The position numbers and the translations under genes were made by a program. A DNA stretch of 23,642 nucleotides, taken from positions 1 to 23,642 of the IMG/VR virus record IMGVR_UViG_3300021959_000396; one strand, 5' to 3'. Positions 4,394 through 20,718 of the stretch are shown piece after piece. A model generated the notes under the pieces. The model searched no databases. It was given only the letters and a program-made list of their open reading frames with translations, and was not told the origin of the DNA. This DNA comes from a virus. Within the stretch, counting starts at the first letter, position 1. Each line of letters begins with the position of its first letter.

Positions 4394-5266
4394 TTACCTC
4401 AGTTGTCCTGAACGTAACTCTTCTATTTTTTTCATATGCTTAGTAATCATATCATCATTGATTTGACTCCTACTCAAATGTTTGTTGTGATCACGCAACT
4501 GAACATAAGCATTTCTGTATAAACTGTCTGACTTTATTCTATCTTCATTGATAGGTTGTGTCTTCTTGCTTACACTATCGCTTTTGTCTGCGTCAAACAC
4601 AGATGCACCTTTTTTGGCAAATGGTAAACCCAAGTTCTTGCCAATCATTTCAACTGCTGATTTATAATCAGGAGTTTCGCCGTCGGTAGTAAGGAAATCA
4701 TCGCCTACTCTAATAGCAAACGTTTCACCTTCCACTGCAAACATATTTCTGGCTTTCATTAAATCAATAACTGCCGCCTTTTGTTCACTTTCCCAACTGC
4801 TTGGCATTTCGTTTTGTAGTTTGCTTAAATGATTTGTCAAAACAAAATCTGTTTTAACTCTATCAAGTTCACTACGCAACTCCTCAACTGTTTGTTCACG
4901 TTTCTTAACTGCATCTCTCAAACTGTTTACGTCTAAACTATTTGGTGCTTCATCAATATTCGCGGTTTGTAGTTGATTAACAACTGTCTTTACCTGCTTT
5001 ATGTCGTCCACATTTAGTTCTTTTAATAAACTTTGTTCTGTATCTCTACGAGCATTTGCGGCTATTTTGTTAGTGTCATCACGTGTGAAAACTCTAACTC
5101 CGTCAACATACATTTTACCATCTCTGTGTTCCACTGCTGGAGCACTTGAGGTTGCTTCTGCTGTTTTTTCAGATTCTACTGGAGTTTTATCTCCAACATC
5201 ACTATCTGTATGTAGTGGTTGCGTGTTAACACCTGCAACTGGTGTATCTGTATCCATCTCTGGCAT
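4394..5266 (-). CDS. Capsid scaffold-like protein
   Basis: The protein has 290 residues and is highly charged. A disordered acidic N-terminus (MPEMDTDTPVAGVNT) is followed by a short folded segment (HRDGKMYVDGVRVFTRDD). A long coiled coil covers roughly residues 70-165, with VKKREQTVEELRSELDRVK. The C-terminus is helical and basic. This is the usual make-up of phage scaffolding proteins, which guide capsid assembly and then leave or are degraded. It lies between portal and capsid genes. The ATG at 5266 has AAGGAG upstream. No protease signature is evident in it. Confidence 0.7.
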   Translation of the reverse strand: MPEMDTDTPVAGVNTQPLHTDSDVGDKTPVESEKTAEATSSAPAVEHRDGKMYVDGVRVFTRDDTNKIAANARRDTEQSLLKELNVDDIKQVKTVVNQLQTANIDEAPNSLDVNSLRDAVKKREQTVEELRSELDRVKTDFVLTNHLSKLQNEMPSSWESEQKAAVIDLMKARNMFAVEGETFAIRVGDDFLTTDGETPDYKSAVEMIGKNLGLPFAKKGASVFDADKSDSVSKKTQPINEDRIKSDSLYRNAYVQLRDHNKHLSRSQINDDMITKHMKKIEELRSGQLR

Positions 5267-5311
5267 ATTATTCTCCTTGTTTAACGATAGAAGTTATCGT
5301 AAATCAAAATA

Positions 5312-6997
5312 TTAAACGCCATTGTCGGTTGATGTTGATGACATCAACTGTTCAAGTCGTTTGCGTATCTTGTCACGCATTTCTTCTTCAAATCCAACGT
5401 CTTCATTAACGTCATTATTTTGGCCAACTGCCTGTTCATACTCTAAATGAGTAGCAAACGGCATATAAGTAACTACTCCGTCTTCTCTGGTGTGAGAATG
5501 GAAGCCGTCACCGCCTAAACTTTGTGCTACACTCACTGCTTCTGCTTCTGTGGCATAGTCTTTTATTTGTGGTAAAGCAAACTGAGTCTTATAACTGTTG
5601 TATGCGGATAATAAACTGTTTATCTCGCCTATTTCGTGCTCTAATGCTTTCTTACTGTATTGTCTATTGTAACTTATACTGAAATCTTGTGGTATTTGTT
5701 GGTTAGTCCAGTCAAACCACAACTTGAACAGTTTCATTTCTGCGTTTTCTAAGTTTTGTGCTTTACGTCTTACGAATGCTTCTAACTTGCTGTCATACTG
5801 TTCTAACTGTTCACCTGAACGTGATGCTTTGATAAGGTCATCACTTCTAATCATTGCGATTTCAGCCATTTTGGTAATCTTTTGTTCTACAAGTTCTCTG
5901 ATTTCTGTGATTGCTTGTAGTGGTGGTGCCACAAAGTCGTAAACATAAGCAGGTGCTTCATTACCTATACCTGCTGGTACTCTCACAACACTTCCTGGTT
6001 CAGCACCAATGGCGCCATCATTTAGGTTGTCTGTGGTTTCGTCTACTACTAATGTGCCGTGTGCACCATAACTTATGACACTATATATCTCTGCCATATC
6101 GCCGTATATACTTCTCTGTATTTGTGCTAAGTCGAAACTGGGTGTTGCTCCAACACCTGAATATATTTTCATTCCTTGGTAAACTGGCACAACTGGGATA
6201 ACACCAAGTTCGTTTTCTTCAACTACTCGGTAATAGTCCTCATACTTTTCTAGGTTGGGACTGTCAACATCAGGCACGTAATCATCTTCTTCTGATGTCC
6301 ATACTGTTTCTATAGTGTCCGGAGTTATCATCCTATACACAGTTTGCTCGTCGTCCTCGTGAAGTTTGATTACGATTTTCTTCAACACGAGTTCGCCTCT
6401 GCTGTTATACCCATAGTGCCAGTTTGTAACATCTAATGGGGTATGTATGTTCCATTTAGGAACATCTGAATCTAAAGGTTTGATACAACTTATCCAAACT
6501 ACTCCAAAGATAAAACTTTTTAAGTCTACCTCTGCCATAAAGTTGTTTAAGTCTGTTTCTGATCCATCTACATCGTGTACGAAATCTTCCATTTCTGGTG
6601 TTTCTGGTAATACACGTTGTGGTGGGTTTTTGAATAGTATGCTGTTGTACTCTGAACTTATCAATCTCAAATAGTTCAAGTATGGTGTGTTTTTCAGTTT
6701 CTCTGAATAAAAACTGCCGTCATCAACTTGGTCCAATCCACGTTTTGCTTGGTAACTACTGCTAACATTCTCAATCTTTGCTTTGTACTTCTTGATAAAA
6801 CTGCCATCTGCGGCTGTTTCATATGTGTTAACGGTTTCTGCGGGAGTGTTCATATCAACAGCATAGGCTTTTAGATACCTACCGTCTCTGTATTCTACGC
6901 CACCATAATATGCATTAATGCAGTGACGCCAATCGTCTTCGTAACGATCGTATAAGTTATGAACACCTGTGATAAAATCTATGTAAGAATCACTCAA
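5312..6997 (-). CDS. Portal protein
   Basis: The product has about 561 residues; the portal forms the dodecameric DNA channel at one capsid vertex. Recognisable stretches are SEYNSILFKNPPQRVLPE, VVWISCIKPLDSDVPKWN, ENELGVIPVVPVYQG, QRSIYGDMAEIYSVISYGAH, and the helix with EQLEQYDSKLEAFVRRKAQN. These resemble portal proteins of the DUF4055-like group. I place the start at the TTG at 6997 because a GGAG lies 7 bases upstream and fits a transcript from the ATAAATA motif at 7035-7041. A TTG at 7030 extends the frame by 11 residues but has no ribosome site and lies at the expected transcription start. It heads the structural unit running to the tape measure. Confidence 0.8.
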   Translation of the reverse strand: MSDSYIDFITGVHNLYDRYEDDWRHCINAYYGGVEYRDGRYLKAYAVDMNTPAETVNTYETAADGSFIKKYKAKIENVSSSYQAKRGLDQVDDGSFYSEKLKNTPYLNYLRLISSEYNSILFKNPPQRVLPETPEMEDFVHDVDGSETDLNNFMAEVDLKSFIFGVVWISCIKPLDSDVPKWNIHTPLDVTNWHYGYNSRGELVLKKIVIKLHEDDEQTVYRMITPDTIETVWTSEEDDYVPDVDSPNLEKYEDYYRVVEENELGVIPVVPVYQGMKIYSGVGATPSFDLAQIQRSIYGDMAEIYSVISYGAHGTLVVDETTDNLNDGAIGAEPGSVVRVPAGIGNEAPAYVYDFVAPPLQAITEIRELVEQKITKMAEIAMIRSDDLIKASRSGEQLEQYDSKLEAFVRRKAQNLENAEMKLFKLWFDWTNQQIPQDFSISYNRQYSKKALEHEIGEINSLLSAYNSYKTQFALPQIKDYATEAEAVSVAQSLGGDGFHSHTREDGVVTYMPFATHLEYEQAVGQNNDVNEDVGFEEEMRDKIRKRLEQLMSSTSTDNGV

Positions 6998-16393: not shown

Positions 16394-16828
16394 TAAAACC
16401 CTACATAAGTGGTGTGTAATACTCATTATAGCACATCAAAGTGTTATAAGAGAAGTCAAGTAAACAACCAACAACTAAACACGAAGTGTTTTTGTTGAGT
16501 TGTTTTTGTGGAATGCGAAGCATTACGCAACTCACTATACATATTACGTGTGCGAACTGCGTTCACACAAAACAAAACACAAACACTCGTTAGCACTCGT
16601 GTATTGTTGTTTTGTTTAGTATTTCTTTCCTATATGTAAAGTTATTATGTAGATTGATCAGTCAAGAAAACACTACTACTAGTGCTTTCCAACTGTGTCA
16701 TTATGTGAGTATCACAGCCTTTCAAACAGAGGTATTTGAATCAGTATGTAAGCAATGGATTCTGTCCTTCTCCAACCTCAACGACTATACTATTGTATAA
16801 GTTATACCTCGCGTTAGTGTATAACTGT
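16394..16828. other. Gene-poor stretch with successive hairpins
   Basis: No convincing gene on either strand. Inverted repeats follow one another: AACAACT/AGTTGTT (16470-16476, 16498-16504) enclosing AAACAC/GTGTTT; AATGC/GCATT (16512-16524); GTGT-GAAC/GTTC-ACAC (16548-16568); AAACAAAACA/TGTTTTGTTT (16570-16579, 16608-16617); and AGTTATAC/GTATAACT (16800-16807, 16819-16826). The direction of any transcript is unclear. A packaging site, a structured RNA or terminators are possible, given the position upstream of the small terminase gene. Confidence 0.55.
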
Positions 16829-16969
16829 TTATGCTTTACTGTTTTGCTTGATAACAACATAACCAAGTCTTTCTGCGGCTTCAACGATATTGTCCAAAGT
16901 CCTGCCAGGGTCTCTATATCTGGTGACCAACCTTATGTGTTGTTTGTTAAACTCTGCTAGGATGTACAT
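16829..16969 (-). CDS. Small ORF of 46 residues, probable
   Basis: The frame starts MYILAEFNKQHIRLVTRYRD and continues with TLDNIVEAAERLGYVVIKQN, a plausible helix-strand unit with codon use like the neighbours. The ATG at 16969 overlaps the end of the 83-residue gene by 23 bases in another frame. Only a short AAGG lies just before it, so translation may depend on the upstream gene. A perfect 8-base hairpin begins 3 bases after its stop. No family recognised. Confidence 0.5.
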   Translation of the reverse strand: MYILAEFNKQHIRLVTRYRDPGRTLDNIVEAAERLGYVVIKQNSKA

Positions 16970-17198
16970 CGCCTTTTGGTGTGCCCAATCCACCAGAGTA
17001 TGTTCTTTTGCCTTGATATTTTTTATTTTGCCTTAATGCCTGTTCTGCCTTGCGTGATTTTGATTTACCAGCATCTTCGTCCCACATAATCCAACCCATT
17101 ATTTTATCAAGTTGGTATGGAGCAAGTGTGCTTAAATCTGATGTGCCATAATATTTTTGTGCCTTTGCTATTGCCTGTTTTTCTATTTTACTTTGCAT
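16947..17198 (-). CDS. Unknown small basic protein
   Basis: The product has 83 residues. The helical N-terminus (MQSKIEKQAIAKAQKYYGTS), a middle with YQLDKIMGWIMWDEDAGKSK, and a Lys/Arg/Gly-rich probably disordered C-terminus (RQNKKYQGKRTYSGGLGTPK) suggest a nucleic-acid or virion-associated protein. The ATG at 17198 has AAGGA upstream and an ATAAATA motif 32 bases before it. It stands between two hairpin-rich stretches. No family recognised. Confidence 0.65.
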   Translation of the reverse strand: MQSKIEKQAIAKAQKYYGTSDLSTLAPYQLDKIMGWIMWDEDAGKSKSRKAEQALRQNKKYQGKRTYSGGLGTPKGDVHPSRV

Positions 17199-17230
17199 AG
17201 TTTTACTATCCTTATCATTTATTGCAAAGT

Positions 17231-17237
17231 TATTTAT
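17231..17237 (-). promoter_or_regulatory. T4-type late promoter for the 17198 gene
   Basis: The minus strand reads TTTGAGATAAATA, 32 bases before the ATG. Upstream is TTTTACCCCCAAAA, which resembles the ACCCAAAA string before the motif at 7035. Confidence 0.65.
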
Positions 17238-17351
17238 CTCAAAGATTGAGTTTTGGGGGTAAAAAAGGAAATGTAGACAACATTAAATATTAATGATATT
17301 AGCAACAAACATTAAGGACATCATAGATATAAAAATATAGTACAATGCAAG

Positions 17352-17690
17352 TTTCCCGCAGAAGGGGAAAGATATTTTAAAGTTGCCTACACACTTATTT
17401 ATCACTACTTGTGCTGTATGGGAAATATACTGAGTGAACCTGTACTCAGCAAGAAACATTGTGATAATGTTTCTTACTTTGTATACTATTGATAACCGGA
17501 TAAGTATCAATATATTTTAGAAGAAATGTTCAATCAATGGCATTAGACTGAACATCAAAATGGCACATTAATCAATCTAGTGGATTTATCGATGTGCTGT
17601 AACAGGTATGTTTGAATAACAGAGGCTACTCTGTTCAATCGGGGATATTACTATATTGTCAGATAAAGTGTATATGATATACCCGTTACA
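17352..17690 (-). ncRNA. Candidate late-expressed structured noncoding RNA
   Basis: No credible ORF fills this stretch. It starts just after an ATAAATA motif (17695-17701, minus) and holds eight inverted repeats: CGGG-ATAT/ATAT-CCCG (17640-17685, around a GTATAT/ATATAC palindrome at 17670-17682); AACAGAG/CTCTGTT (17618-17635, 4-base loop); GCACAT/ATGTGC (17563-17597); ATGTTCA/TGAACAT (17526-17555); TATTGATA/TATCAATA (17487-17512); AAGAAACATT/AATGTTTCTT (17451-17475, perfect 10-base stem); CTGAGT/ACTCAG (17430-17449); TTTCCC/GGGAAA (17352-17370). The ACCTGT in the 17430 hairpin loop complements ACAGGT at 17602-17607, a possible pseudoknot. The 3' end is unknown; a second ATAAATA lies inside. 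No match to a known RNA class is claimed. Confidence 0.55.
17396..17402 (-). promoter_or_regulatory. ATAAATA motif without a downstream gene
   Basis: The minus strand reads AGTGATAAATAAG. No ORF follows before the next motif at 17231; the TTTCCC/GGGAAA hairpin does. It could start a short RNA or feed the 17198 gene with a long leader. Confidence 0.45.
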
Positions 17691-17694
17691 ATAT

Positions 17695-17701
17695 TATTTA
17701 T
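17695..17701 (-). promoter_or_regulatory. T4-type late promoter of the candidate noncoding RNA
   Basis: The minus strand reads TTTTGAGATAAATA. TTTGAGATAAATA is identical to the copy at 17231, with a similar ACCCAAAAA upstream. Transcription would enter the hairpin-rich stretch that has no gene. Confidence 0.6.
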
Positions 17702-17722
17702 CTCAAAACTGCTTTTTGGGTG

Positions 17723-17974
17723 CTAAAACAATACTAGTTCTACTACCACTGTGAGCAAAGTTGTTAACACAAGACCCATAATGGTCCATATTCTTGTGTC
17801 CAATCTGTCTAATCTTGTGGTAAAAAATGTTCTATTATCCTTTACTTCTTCTTCTAATCTGTGTATACAGTCGTGAATATGTTTAACATCTGTTTCCATC
17901 ACAGAGATTTTGTTGTTTAAATGCTGATTGGTTACACTTTTGTTAGACACTTCGATGTCCTGATATCCAAGCAT
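17723..17974 (-). CDS. Coiled-coil protein with C-terminal membrane anchor (XhlA/lysis-like)
   Basis: The product has 83 residues. A coiled coil spans about 25-62 (MET DVKHIHDCIHRLEEEV, then FFTTRLDRLDTRIW), followed by one hydrophobic segment at 64-83 (IMGLVLTTLLTVVVELVLF). This layout matches XhlA-like haemolysin or lysis accessory proteins. The ATG at 17974 overlaps the 48-residue gene by 32 bases and has a weak ribosome site; an internal ATG (residue 26) is possible. It is the last gene before the noncoding stretch. Lysis function is inferred from architecture only. Confidence 0.6.
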   Translation of the reverse strand: MLGYQDIEVSNKSVTNQHLNNKISVMETDVKHIHDCIHRLEEEVKDNRTFFTTRLDRLDTRIWTIMGLVLTTLLTVVVELVLF

Positions 17975-18360: not shown

Positions 18361-20718
18361 CTATCCGTTGTTGGTGTATGCTGATAACTGGAAGTCATAC
18401 ACTGGTGTTGAACTTTCGTTTGTGTCTATTCTCAGTATTGGGTTGGTGTTGTTGCCACTTGTTACATCAATAGGACAACATATCATAAATCCATCATCAT
18501 CGATTGCGGCATCCCAATACTTGTTAGTGCCTATGTAACTGTTTACATTTGTTCTGGTATGTGTGGATGTACAAGTGTCTCCACTAAATCCATAACTGCT
18601 GTCTAATGGTGATGTTGGTATGATATTCACAAAATCTTGGGCAAAAGGCATCATATATATTCTACCATCTGCACCTAATCTACCTTTTGCGGATTGTTCA
18701 TTTGAGGAAATACTGTTGTTAGGATCATATCTTTGGAAAAACAATGTGTCAATGTCAAATATTCCTATGTCACCACTATTCCAGGGTGTAGCATATATTT
18801 TACCATCTGCACCTAATACAGCATCTTGATATTGATCAAAAGCACCTGGTGTACTACTGCCTGATTTTAGTGTTATTTGGGTAAATGTATCTGTGCTAGG
18901 ATCCCATTTGTAAACACCTGCACGTCTGTAAGGCAACATATACACACAACCGTCTTTAGGATGTGTACACATATTAGGATGTGTAAATCCAGCACCAGCA
19001 CTGGTTATATTTGTGCTAGAACTGGTGTTTGTGCTGGGGTCAAATAACATATGATTGGTGCTGTTTTTTGGTTTGAATATTATTCTGCCATCATCTAATG
19101 GATGTGCACCATAATAACCACCTGTACTCAAGTTACTGTTAAAATGCGACGTGCTTGTTCCTGTTGAAGGATCCCATTCAACTACTGTTCTACTGCTGTT
19201 AAAAGGTGGAATATAAACTTTACCATTTGTGCTTAAAACAGGTTGTAAATGTGTTCTACCTGAACCTTGCCCTGTGATAGTTATTGTGCTGGTTGTTCCT
19301 GTTGAAGGATCATATAACTCTGCTTTTAGATCTCTTGGTCCTAATAACACTTTGCCATCTGGTAAACTTATAGCACCCATATTTCTGTTTGAGTTAGTGG
19401 TTAATGAACTGCCTGTCATATCATATGTTACAGCACCAGCACTATTCATAGTGTTAGCAACACCTTGCCATTCACTGTATGTTGGCATAGTTGGCCAACT
19501 TGGGTATGTTGGTCCTACTGGTGTTTCTGTTATTGTTAGTGTGCCTGTTGTTGCTACTACTGAGCCTGTTATAGAACCCGTTCTAAGACTTACTGTAAAC
19601 GTCTCTGAGCCACTTATGCCTCCACTTACTGTAGTTACCGTGCCTGTGCCTGTGTTACTGGTTATTGTAATAGTGCCGTTTGTTGCTGTGAAATCAGCAT
19701 CTGTTGTGGTGCCATTGTTGATTGTGTAGAACAATATTGTGCTGTCTGCTACATCTGTTGTGGTTGCTGTTATTGTAAAACTGGTTCCTTCTACTGATGA
19801 ACTTGGTGATCCTGCTAAACTGTATGTTGGTGTGACTGTTTCTGGGTCTTTTACCACAACTACTACCACTCCACTACCACCATTACCACCTGCACCGCCA
19901 CCTGATCCAGTATTTCCTACACCATTTATGTTTTGTGTTGCAGTTCCGCCTGGCGTTAACACCCAGCCTCTGCCGTATCCACCTATACCTGATCCACCGG
20001 CTCCACCTGCTCCTTGTGATGTTGCTGATTCATTATCTCCACCACCGCCACCACCAGCATAGTAGTTACCGTCTATCCAGTAGTATCCTGCACCACCGTC
20101 TCCACCACTAGTGCCTGCTTGACCAACTCCTCCAGCACCTCCGCCACCGCCTCCAGTGCTAGATCCGTTACCACCTGCGTTACCGTAATGTGTTGTTTTG
20201 CCTGTGTTTGTGCCAGCAGTACTTGAACCACCTGTTGCAGTTCCCCACGTGGCTCCACCACCGCCAGAACCACCATTTAAACCTCTACCAGCACCGCCAC
20301 CATCGGCTGTGTATGGACCAAATACTGTGTCACCACCATTTGCACCACCACTTGGATCATTCAAACCACTATCTCCACCTGCTCCTACTGTCACACCAAC
20401 TGTGGTAACAGTATCATCTCCTCCTGTGAGATTCCAAGTGAATAAGTTTTGTAAAATGATAAGTTCTCCAGCACCACCACCGCCTGAACTAAGTCCTGCA
20501 GGGTTTGATACTAGATTGGGGTCATCGCCCCCACCACCGCCACCACCTACTAGTAACACTTGGTCAATAGCACCTGATTCTGCTATGGTGAGAGTGCCAT
20601 TTGATGTAAACTTGTGAAGTCTCAGTCTATCTTGTCCACTGCCAACAAAACTTGTGGTACCACCACTTATGTTTGCTGGTTCTCCGTTTACATTGTCAAA
20701 TGTAGCACTAAGTGGCAT
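18361..20718 (-). CDS. Tail adhesin: glycine-rich, Calx-beta-like and propeller-like protein
   Basis: The product has 785 residues. The N-terminal strand region is followed by a glycine-rich domain (about 53-290), opening IDQVLLVGGGGGGG and closing GGSGVVVVVVKD, likely to form polyglycine-type helices as in some phage adhesins. Residues about 297-398 look like a Calx-beta repeat (SVEGTSFTITATT, DADFTATNGTITI, ETFTVSLRTG). From about 445 to 780 seven repeats carry D/N-G-[KRCF]-[VIM]-[YLIFM]-x-x-P followed by WDPSTGT-like segments, consistent with a seven-bladed propeller. It probably recognises the host surface. The start overlaps the fibre gene stop (TAATG). Confidence 0.75.
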   Translation of the reverse strand: MPLSATFDNVNGEPANISGGTTSFVGSGQDRLRLHKFTSNGTLTIAESGAIDQVLLVGGGGGGGDDPNLVSNPAGLSSGGGGAGELIILQNLFTWNLTGGDDTVTTVGVTVGAGGDSGLNDPSGGANGGDTVFGPYTADGGGAGRGLNGGSGGGGATWGTATGGSSTAGTNTGKTTHYGNAGGNGSSTGGGGGGAGGVGQAGTSGGDGGAGYYWIDGNYYAGGGGGGDNESATSQGAGGAGGSGIGGYGRGWVLTPGGTATQNINGVGNTGSGGGAGGNGGSGVVVVVVKDPETVTPTYSLAGSPSSSVEGTSFTITATTTDVADSTILFYTINNGTTTDADFTATNGTITITSNTGTGTVTTVSGGISGSETFTVSLRTGSITGSVVATTGTLTITETPVGPTYPSWPTMPTYSEWQGVANTMNSAGAVTYDMTGSSLTTNSNRNMGAISLPDGKVLLGPRDLKAELYDPSTGTTSTITITGQGSGRTHLQPVLSTNGKVYIPPFNSSRTVVEWDPSTGTSTSHFNSNLSTGGYYGAHPLDDGRIIFKPKNSTNHMLFDPSTNTSSSTNITSAGAGFTHPNMCTHPKDGCVYMLPYRRAGVYKWDPSTDTFTQITLKSGSSTPGAFDQYQDAVLGADGKIYATPWNSGDIGIFDIDTLFFQRYDPNNSISSNEQSAKGRLGADGRIYMMPFAQDFVNIIPTSPLDSSYGFSGDTCTSTHTRTNVNSYIGTNKYWDAAIDDDGFMICCPIDVTSGNNTNPILRIDTNESSTPVYDFQLSAYTNNG

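Follow-up and report, generated by a model that had tools for sequence, protein, structure and literature searches.

What is encoded in a gap among the structural genes of a tailed phage in which no credible gene can be read? The gap lies in the window, by which we mean the whole stretch of DNA analyzed here, a 23.6-kb tailed-phage virus record in which tape measure, portal, and large terminase genes were identified and whose structural genes are on the minus strand. It separates an 83-aa coiled-coil gene from an 83-aa ORF (table 1). A sequence-only reading had proposed here one candidate structured noncoding RNA, at 17352-17701, expressed late from its own T4-type promoter. Our analysis revealed two neighboring structured noncoding RNAs in the region, RNA-A and RNA-B, each behind its own promoter motif on the structural-gene strand and with a fold conserved by compensating mutations in related phages; their expression remains untested. 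The RNAs belong to a previously undescribed set in related phages, for which late expression is inferred and a function is not yet known.

Table 1. Positions in the window of the two RNAs, their parts, the promoter motifs, and the flanking genes
Feature	Coordinates	Strand	Remarks
Small coiled-coil protein gene	17723..17974	-	83 aa; C-terminal hydrophobic stretch; directly upstream of RNA-A
RNA-A late promoter (predicted)	17689..17702	-	GATAAATA (17695-17702) + ATATT + G; +1 = 17689
RNA-A	17451..17689	-	about 240 nt; fold z -5.0; 3' end inferred from last conserved hairpin
P1 closing helix, 5' arm	17679..17689	-	GUAACGGGUAU; begins at +1; covariation
P1 closing helix, 3' arm	17599..17609	-	AUACCUGUUAC; covariation
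P2 hairpin, enclosed by P1	17618..17635	-	varies between homologues
P3 hairpin	17563..17597	-	GCACA...UGUGC; GCAUAACA...UGUUAUGC in L099
Unpaired conserved CAUUUU	17557..17562	-	GCCAUUUU; directly 3' of P3
P4 hairpin	17523..17556	-	arm sequences vary among homologues; loop in the window shows UGCCA
Unpaired conserved segment	17516..17525	-	UUCUUCUAAA; UUUUCCUAAA in relatives
Extra hairpin	17487..17512	-	UAUUGAUA...UAUCAAUA; present in window and L002
3' hairpin	17451..17475	-	AAGAAACAUU/AAUGUUUCUU, then GCUGA; last RNA-A hairpin
RNA-B late promoter (predicted)	17390..17403	-	GATAAATA + AGTGT + G; +1 = 17390
RNA-B	17273..17390	-	about 118 nt; closed by GUAGGCAAC (17382-17390) with GUUGUCUAC (17273-17281)
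Third GATAAATA promoter (predicted)	17225..17238	-	precedes next gene
83-aa ORF	16947..17198	-	read from third promoter

Promoters and Folding of the Two Units

The minus strand of 17260-17722 folded 5.9 s.d. better than dinucleotide shuffles, none of 100 shuffles being as good, whereas the plus strand of the same region was only 2.6 s.d. better than its shuffles. The only three copies of GATAAATAA in the whole window (17702, 17403, and 17238) lie in the intergenic gap, all on the minus strand, a count to be compared with 0.41 expected and reached by none of 100 shuffles. The exact T4 consensus TATAAATA is absent from the window, hence the match of its promoters to the consensus is 7/8; the homologous locus L002, in turn, carries the exact TATAAATA where the window has GATAAATA. 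Both RNAs begin at a G located five bases past GATAAATA, and the spacing from promoter to the +1 G was 5-6 nt in all nine RNA-A homologues (the window included), so that a T4-type motif at about -10, at a short fixed distance from the start, is present as expected of such a promoter. Across 126 promoter sites a T followed by a G was favored in the start region, and the motif was biased toward the structural-gene strand in the related loci. A search for a gp55-type sigma factor gave no match in 24 records, all of them fragments, while the T4 control was found. The fixed spacing, together with the covariation and shared loop motif described below, suggests that T4-type late promoters are used outside T4-like myoviruses and for noncoding units.

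The earlier reading fared well in most of its parts. The inverted repeats that it listed were confirmed (AAGAAACATT/AATGTTTCTT, a perfect 10 bp at 17451-17475; TATTGATA/TATCAATA, 8 bp; AACAGAG/CTCTGTT, 7 bp), as were the lack of a credible gene, no conserved ORF being found, and the T4-type -10 motif upstream on the minus strand, with its 7/8 match and constant spacing in all homologues. The single RNA held only in part: the structured RNA is real, but there are two units, and the left border at 17352 is wrong for RNA-B, which extends beyond it to 17273. Late expression is supported by the promoter motif by inference alone, since neither transcript nor timing has been tested.

RNA-B of the window reached a fold z of -4.9, within the range of -3.4 to -6.4 observed for RNA-B against shuffles, and its closing helix covaried in seven homologues (p 0.00125). 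The window's own RNA-B lacks UGCCA, a motif treated below. The 83-aa ORF beyond it does not belong to the RNA units, because no relative was found when relatives of this ORF were searched for.

Conservation of the RNA-A Fold in Related Phages

The first three related contigs with the same arrangement were reached via the neighboring tail-type gene, and further ones via a DNA pattern for the RNA-A core together with alignment of the coiled-coil protein. RNA-A homologues were thus assembled from the window, L002, L003, L004, L007, L008, L009, L030, and L099, several of which have duplicate loci. Five homologues folded independently each exhibited a z between -5.0 and -6.6 and converged on one architecture, in which P1 closes from the first base around the variable P2 and is followed by P3, CAUUUU, P4, UUUUCCUAAA, and a last hairpin. 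P2 takes the form of a hairpin with loop UUUUAUCGAG in L007, L008, L009, L030, and L099. The 3' hairpin resembles an intrinsic terminator in relatives (stem and U-run); in the window it is degenerate and was not scored as one.

To count covariation, we excised the helix arms and linked them by N, because the full-length MAFFT alignment misplaced the 5' ends. Seven distinct sequences were compared over P1, P3, and P4 together: both sides had changed in 15 of 23 pairs (8.4 in shuffles), 93% of cells were paired (72% in shuffles), and the covariation score was 0.605 against 0.195, none of 500 shuffles scoring as high. The signal vanished when the partner was slid by 1-3 columns. Both-side changes reached 6/6 pairs in P4, whose arms were picked per sequence, a choice that favors pairing there; P1 and P3 were anchored. 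For P1 we also ran a permutation test in which nothing but the +1 position and a conserved downstream GCA defined the arms; own-sequence pairing was the best, and only 1 of 5040 permutations was as good. We therefore regard it as very likely that RNA-A is a real structured RNA. This strong covariation in diverged homologues supports the earlier structured noncoding reading, and of the observations named beforehand as able to refute it, absence of covariation and a conserved ORF were checked and neither was met. The proposed pseudoknot found no support: although ACAGGT (17602-17607) and ACCTGT (17438-17443) are indeed complementary, relatives have no equivalent ACAGGU loop, and the ACCUGU strand belongs to the covarying closing helix P1.

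The units also behave as noncoding sequence. They contain no conserved ORF, the longest sense ORFs (17-61 codons) being mostly unrelated, and the differences in unit length are not multiples of three. When the RNA-A core was searched for with a covariance model, each record gave one match, and among records with a readable large terminase, RNA-A was present in exactly those with at least 74% terminase identity to the window; below 74%, only weak matches were obtained. One weak match (25.4 bits), at L056 6744-6827, lies behind a late-type promoter and is possibly a remote RNA-A relative. No DNA match to RNA-A was found in cultured phages, and four pattern matches in cellular genomes had neither promoter nor P1 and were judged to be chance. 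Rfam yielded no match at gathering thresholds, nor up to E=1 on 16500-17800, in line with the earlier statement that the RNA could be matched to neither GOLLD nor ROOL. Neither the window nor any of eight related loci contained a tRNA or tmRNA according to ARAGORN, and no description of such RNAs was found in the literature searched, which did not cover most subscription journals.

A Wider Set Sharing a UGCC(A) Motif

Around the loci of the coiled-coil gene we collected 160 non-identical [GT]ATAAATA sites, at 25.6% of which a strong closing helix (score of at least 9) starts at +1; shuffles gave 2.1%, and randomly chosen G sites of the same loci 1.0%. Grouping the units with a closing-helix score of at least 8 by shared sequence resulted in 37 clusters. 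A few of them overlap coding sequence and could have arisen by chance, and distant ancestry is partly shared among the clusters, so that motif counts do not represent fully independent origins. UGCCA occurs in 26 of the 37 clusters (5.3 expected; 6 on the opposite strand), UCUCC in 14 (2.9 expected), UCCUAA in 11 (2.2 expected), and UGGYCUCC in 6 (0.03 expected). A stem of at least 5 bp closes a small loop around GCC at 19 of 31 UGCCA sites, where 4.3 were expected, and these stems differ in sequence, as exemplified by AAAUCAAGAU-UGCC-AUUUUGAUUU and AAUGU-UGCC-ACAUU. The most conserved UGCCA of RNA-A itself is partly paired in P3 (unpaired 0.2-0.25). CUCC was mostly unpaired (mean 0.75 against a background of 0.44), and UUGCCAA was among the most enriched 7-mers, at 11/31 versus 0.5. 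L099 units were left out of the unpairedness, 7-mer, and antisense-specificity statistics, in which most other affected loci were represented by duplicate contigs; the main cluster statistics come from a corrected count.

We conclude that a set of short RNAs in uncultured siphophages shares the T4-type late promoter motif, a helix from the first transcribed base, and the UGCC(A) motif, usually in the small loop of a hairpin whose stem varies in sequence, and often with unpaired CUCC, the transcription of these units being inferred. RNA-A very probably belongs to this set. The genes downstream of the RNAs differ between phages, hence these RNAs do not serve as leaders of one gene. The longer word UGGYCUCCGA was seen to recur in RNAs of otherwise different families (L007, L030, L059, L076, L096, L077, and L169). 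Another RNA-like family (GCUGGGUUAGG...UCUCC...CCGG...) was observed at L062 6879, L069 6873, L093 7190, L087 6866, and L079 5194, with its promoter within the 3' end of a small terminase-like gene.

Possible Role, Rival Explanations, and Known Systems

As a working mechanism, we infer that a late transcription system resembling that of T4 would produce the RNAs, that the closing helix at the 5' end may protect them from 5'-dependent decay, and that they would act in trans. One common partner would recognize the UGCC loop; it is most likely a protein that binds RNA, encoded by the phage or by its host, because a constant 4-5 base loop is carried on changing stems, an arrangement that we infer to suit protein recognition better than base pairing. 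By analogy with CsrB/RsmZ, and with a different motif, the RNAs may titrate or scaffold this protein, for which there are no binding data. As a whole, this mechanism is tentative, and we are slightly more inclined to doubt than to accept it: binding is untested, and the absence of any identified binding protein or observed transcript counts against what has been inferred from sequence. UGCC-loop hairpins with long stems are also few elsewhere in the genomes, and no mRNA site stood out clearly as an operator for such a protein. The lack of UGCCA in the window's RNA-B, the partial pairing of the most conserved UGCCA in RNA-A, and the missing gp55 match in the fragmentary records likewise speak against this mechanism. 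A bolder reading sees a late RNA regulon, in which each phage would have between one and several small noncoding RNAs, drawn from many sequence families; every one would be transcribed from a T4-type late promoter and closed at the first base, and all would show the UGCC loop to one partner. We do not favor it outright, the balance tipping narrowly against it; if true, it would amount to a phage RNA system of a new kind and not a new family of a known kind. Structured phage RNAs have so far been isolated cases with unknown roles. In this poorly known phage group, the covarying helices, the constant distance to the promoter, and the common loop motif together make of a gap without annotation a set of RNAs that can be tested, with the UGCC loop as a direct handle for finding the partner.

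Among other explanations, a less likely but still possible one is that these are base-pairing small RNAs which, late in infection, mask the sites where translation begins on host mRNAs or on early mRNAs of the phage. What makes it attractive is that the words with the highest enrichment are the reverse complements of Shine-Dalgarno and start-codon sequences: unpaired UCUCC and UCCUAA match the Shine-Dalgarno sequences GGAGA and UUAGGA, and UGCCAU matches AUGGCA start sites. The RNA-A order GCCAUUUU-P4-UUUUCCUAAA is antiparallel to UUUAGGA...AAAAUGGC, and L097 has AUGAGCUCC against GGAGCUCAU at the start of the next gene. However, with L099 units left out, matched downstream leaders had no advantage over mismatched leaders (mean rank 0.44), nor did start sites of the own genome over foreign ones (mean rank 0.49); the two motifs occurred in mixed order (9 versus 7), and the base after UGCCA tracks the stem and not the start codon. 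Specific complementarity to mRNA start sites of the same phage, as would be expected of a trans-acting antisense RNA, was thus not found, phage targets alone having been considered and not those of the host. We consider it unlikely that the units are tandem promoter-terminator spacers whose stems merely stabilize or terminate transcripts between late genes, without function in trans. Some units do end in classical intrinsic terminators (L003: AAAACCCGTTATTCGTAACGGGTTTTCTTTT), and in L003 the leader of the following gene likewise has a 5' hairpin that begins at +1, but insulation requires neither conserved unpaired segments (GCCAUUUU, UUUUCCUAAA) nor shared loop motifs, and full promoter-to-terminator units without ORFs are maintained.

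Two further proposals appear very unlikely. According to one, the RNAs assist packaging or are themselves packaged, in a role like that of phi29 pRNA, which would agree with their position between tail/lysis-type genes and terminase genes (for RNA-A, between the coiled-coil and terminase genes in those phages that could be read); against it stand the several unrelated RNAs per phage group, differing even in close relatives, and a terminase that matches ordinary large terminases, which are not known to use RNA. According to the other, the hairpins mimic tRNA and serve as decoys for an anticodon nuclease or some other factor that binds tRNA. The enriched UUGCCAA is identical to the anticodon loop of tRNA-Gly(GCC), but the predicted stems mostly close loops of 4-5 bases (UGCC, GCCA) and not a 7-base anticodon loop, and the ARAGORN search was negative.

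The protein-partner reading draws on CsrB/RsmZ-type RNAs, otherwise diverging RNAs in which a constant short loop motif is displayed on variable stems. The present RNAs share this property (the 19 of 31 sites above), although the motif is UGCC(A) and not the GGA bound by CsrA, and, unlike those decoys, they have mostly one to three hairpins each and no known partner protein; the likeness claimed is one of working only, by analogy. With GOLLD and ROOL they have in common being structured noncoding RNAs of phages and prophages without known protein product, and GOLLD RNA rises during lysis (PMC12286853). GOLLD and ROOL, however, measure several hundred to more than 800 nt, well above RNA-A and RNA-B, and often lie near tRNAs, which are missing here in the window and eight related loci; moreover, no Rfam covariance model matched the present RNAs, of which a genome carries more than one, every unit having a T4-type promoter to itself. 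Phage T4, whose late promoters are of the TATAAATA type, likewise has small RNAs with no known role, RNA C and RNA D, and a review reported no functionally characterized trans-acting small RNA of T4 (PMC3014915); they lie in the tRNA region, whereas the present RNAs lie among siphophage structural genes, directly behind late-type promoters. ICP1 makes an abundant noncoding RNA between gp139 and gp140, in an ORF-less gap adjoining the lysis cluster (PMC7567579), but this is one RNA of about 800 nt, unlike the multiple shorter RNAs described here. The phi29 pRNA is also a small structured RNA encoded by a phage, and differs in that here no Rfam match was found, several RNA families occur in the phage group, and the large terminase is ordinary.

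Concerning the surroundings of the RNAs, the coiled-coil gene is directly upstream of RNA-A in every RNA-A phage, and a family search with its protein gave only sub-threshold matches (e.g., XhlA, E 0.039). The tail-type protein (window 18361-20718) has a glycine-rich domain (Pfam Gly_rich_2). In L003 (after 4714), L002 (after 5489), and L099 (next ORF), RNA-B is followed by a gene whose protein has a strongly basic N-terminus (MTKNRKQQRAHNKAIRIANQQ; VKKSVKQRKAANRAIYHAVQQQ) that resembles arginine-rich RNA-binding motifs; the window has no such gene there. Farther downstream, distant relatives share a non-annotated stretch of unusually high conservation (window ~16600-16900, L003 ~5100-5450, and the corresponding parts of L004 and L008), which reads GGTTGGA.AAGG...TTTGAAA.GGCTGTGATACTCACATAA. 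The large terminase reading contains an in-frame stop in two records, TAA in G019 (record of L101) and TGA in G013 (record of L084), where it lies in two pieces. Lastly, a mini-ORF of about 13-18 codons, reading MA(T)...TEP...NT-stop (ATGGCAACA...ACAGAACCC...AACACATAA), recurs in L009 (after the GCGAAG unit), L080 3010, L052 3339, and L003 ~4950-5050; it sometimes overlaps a longer gene out of frame and has apparently shrunk to ATG GCA TAA in L007 and L008.
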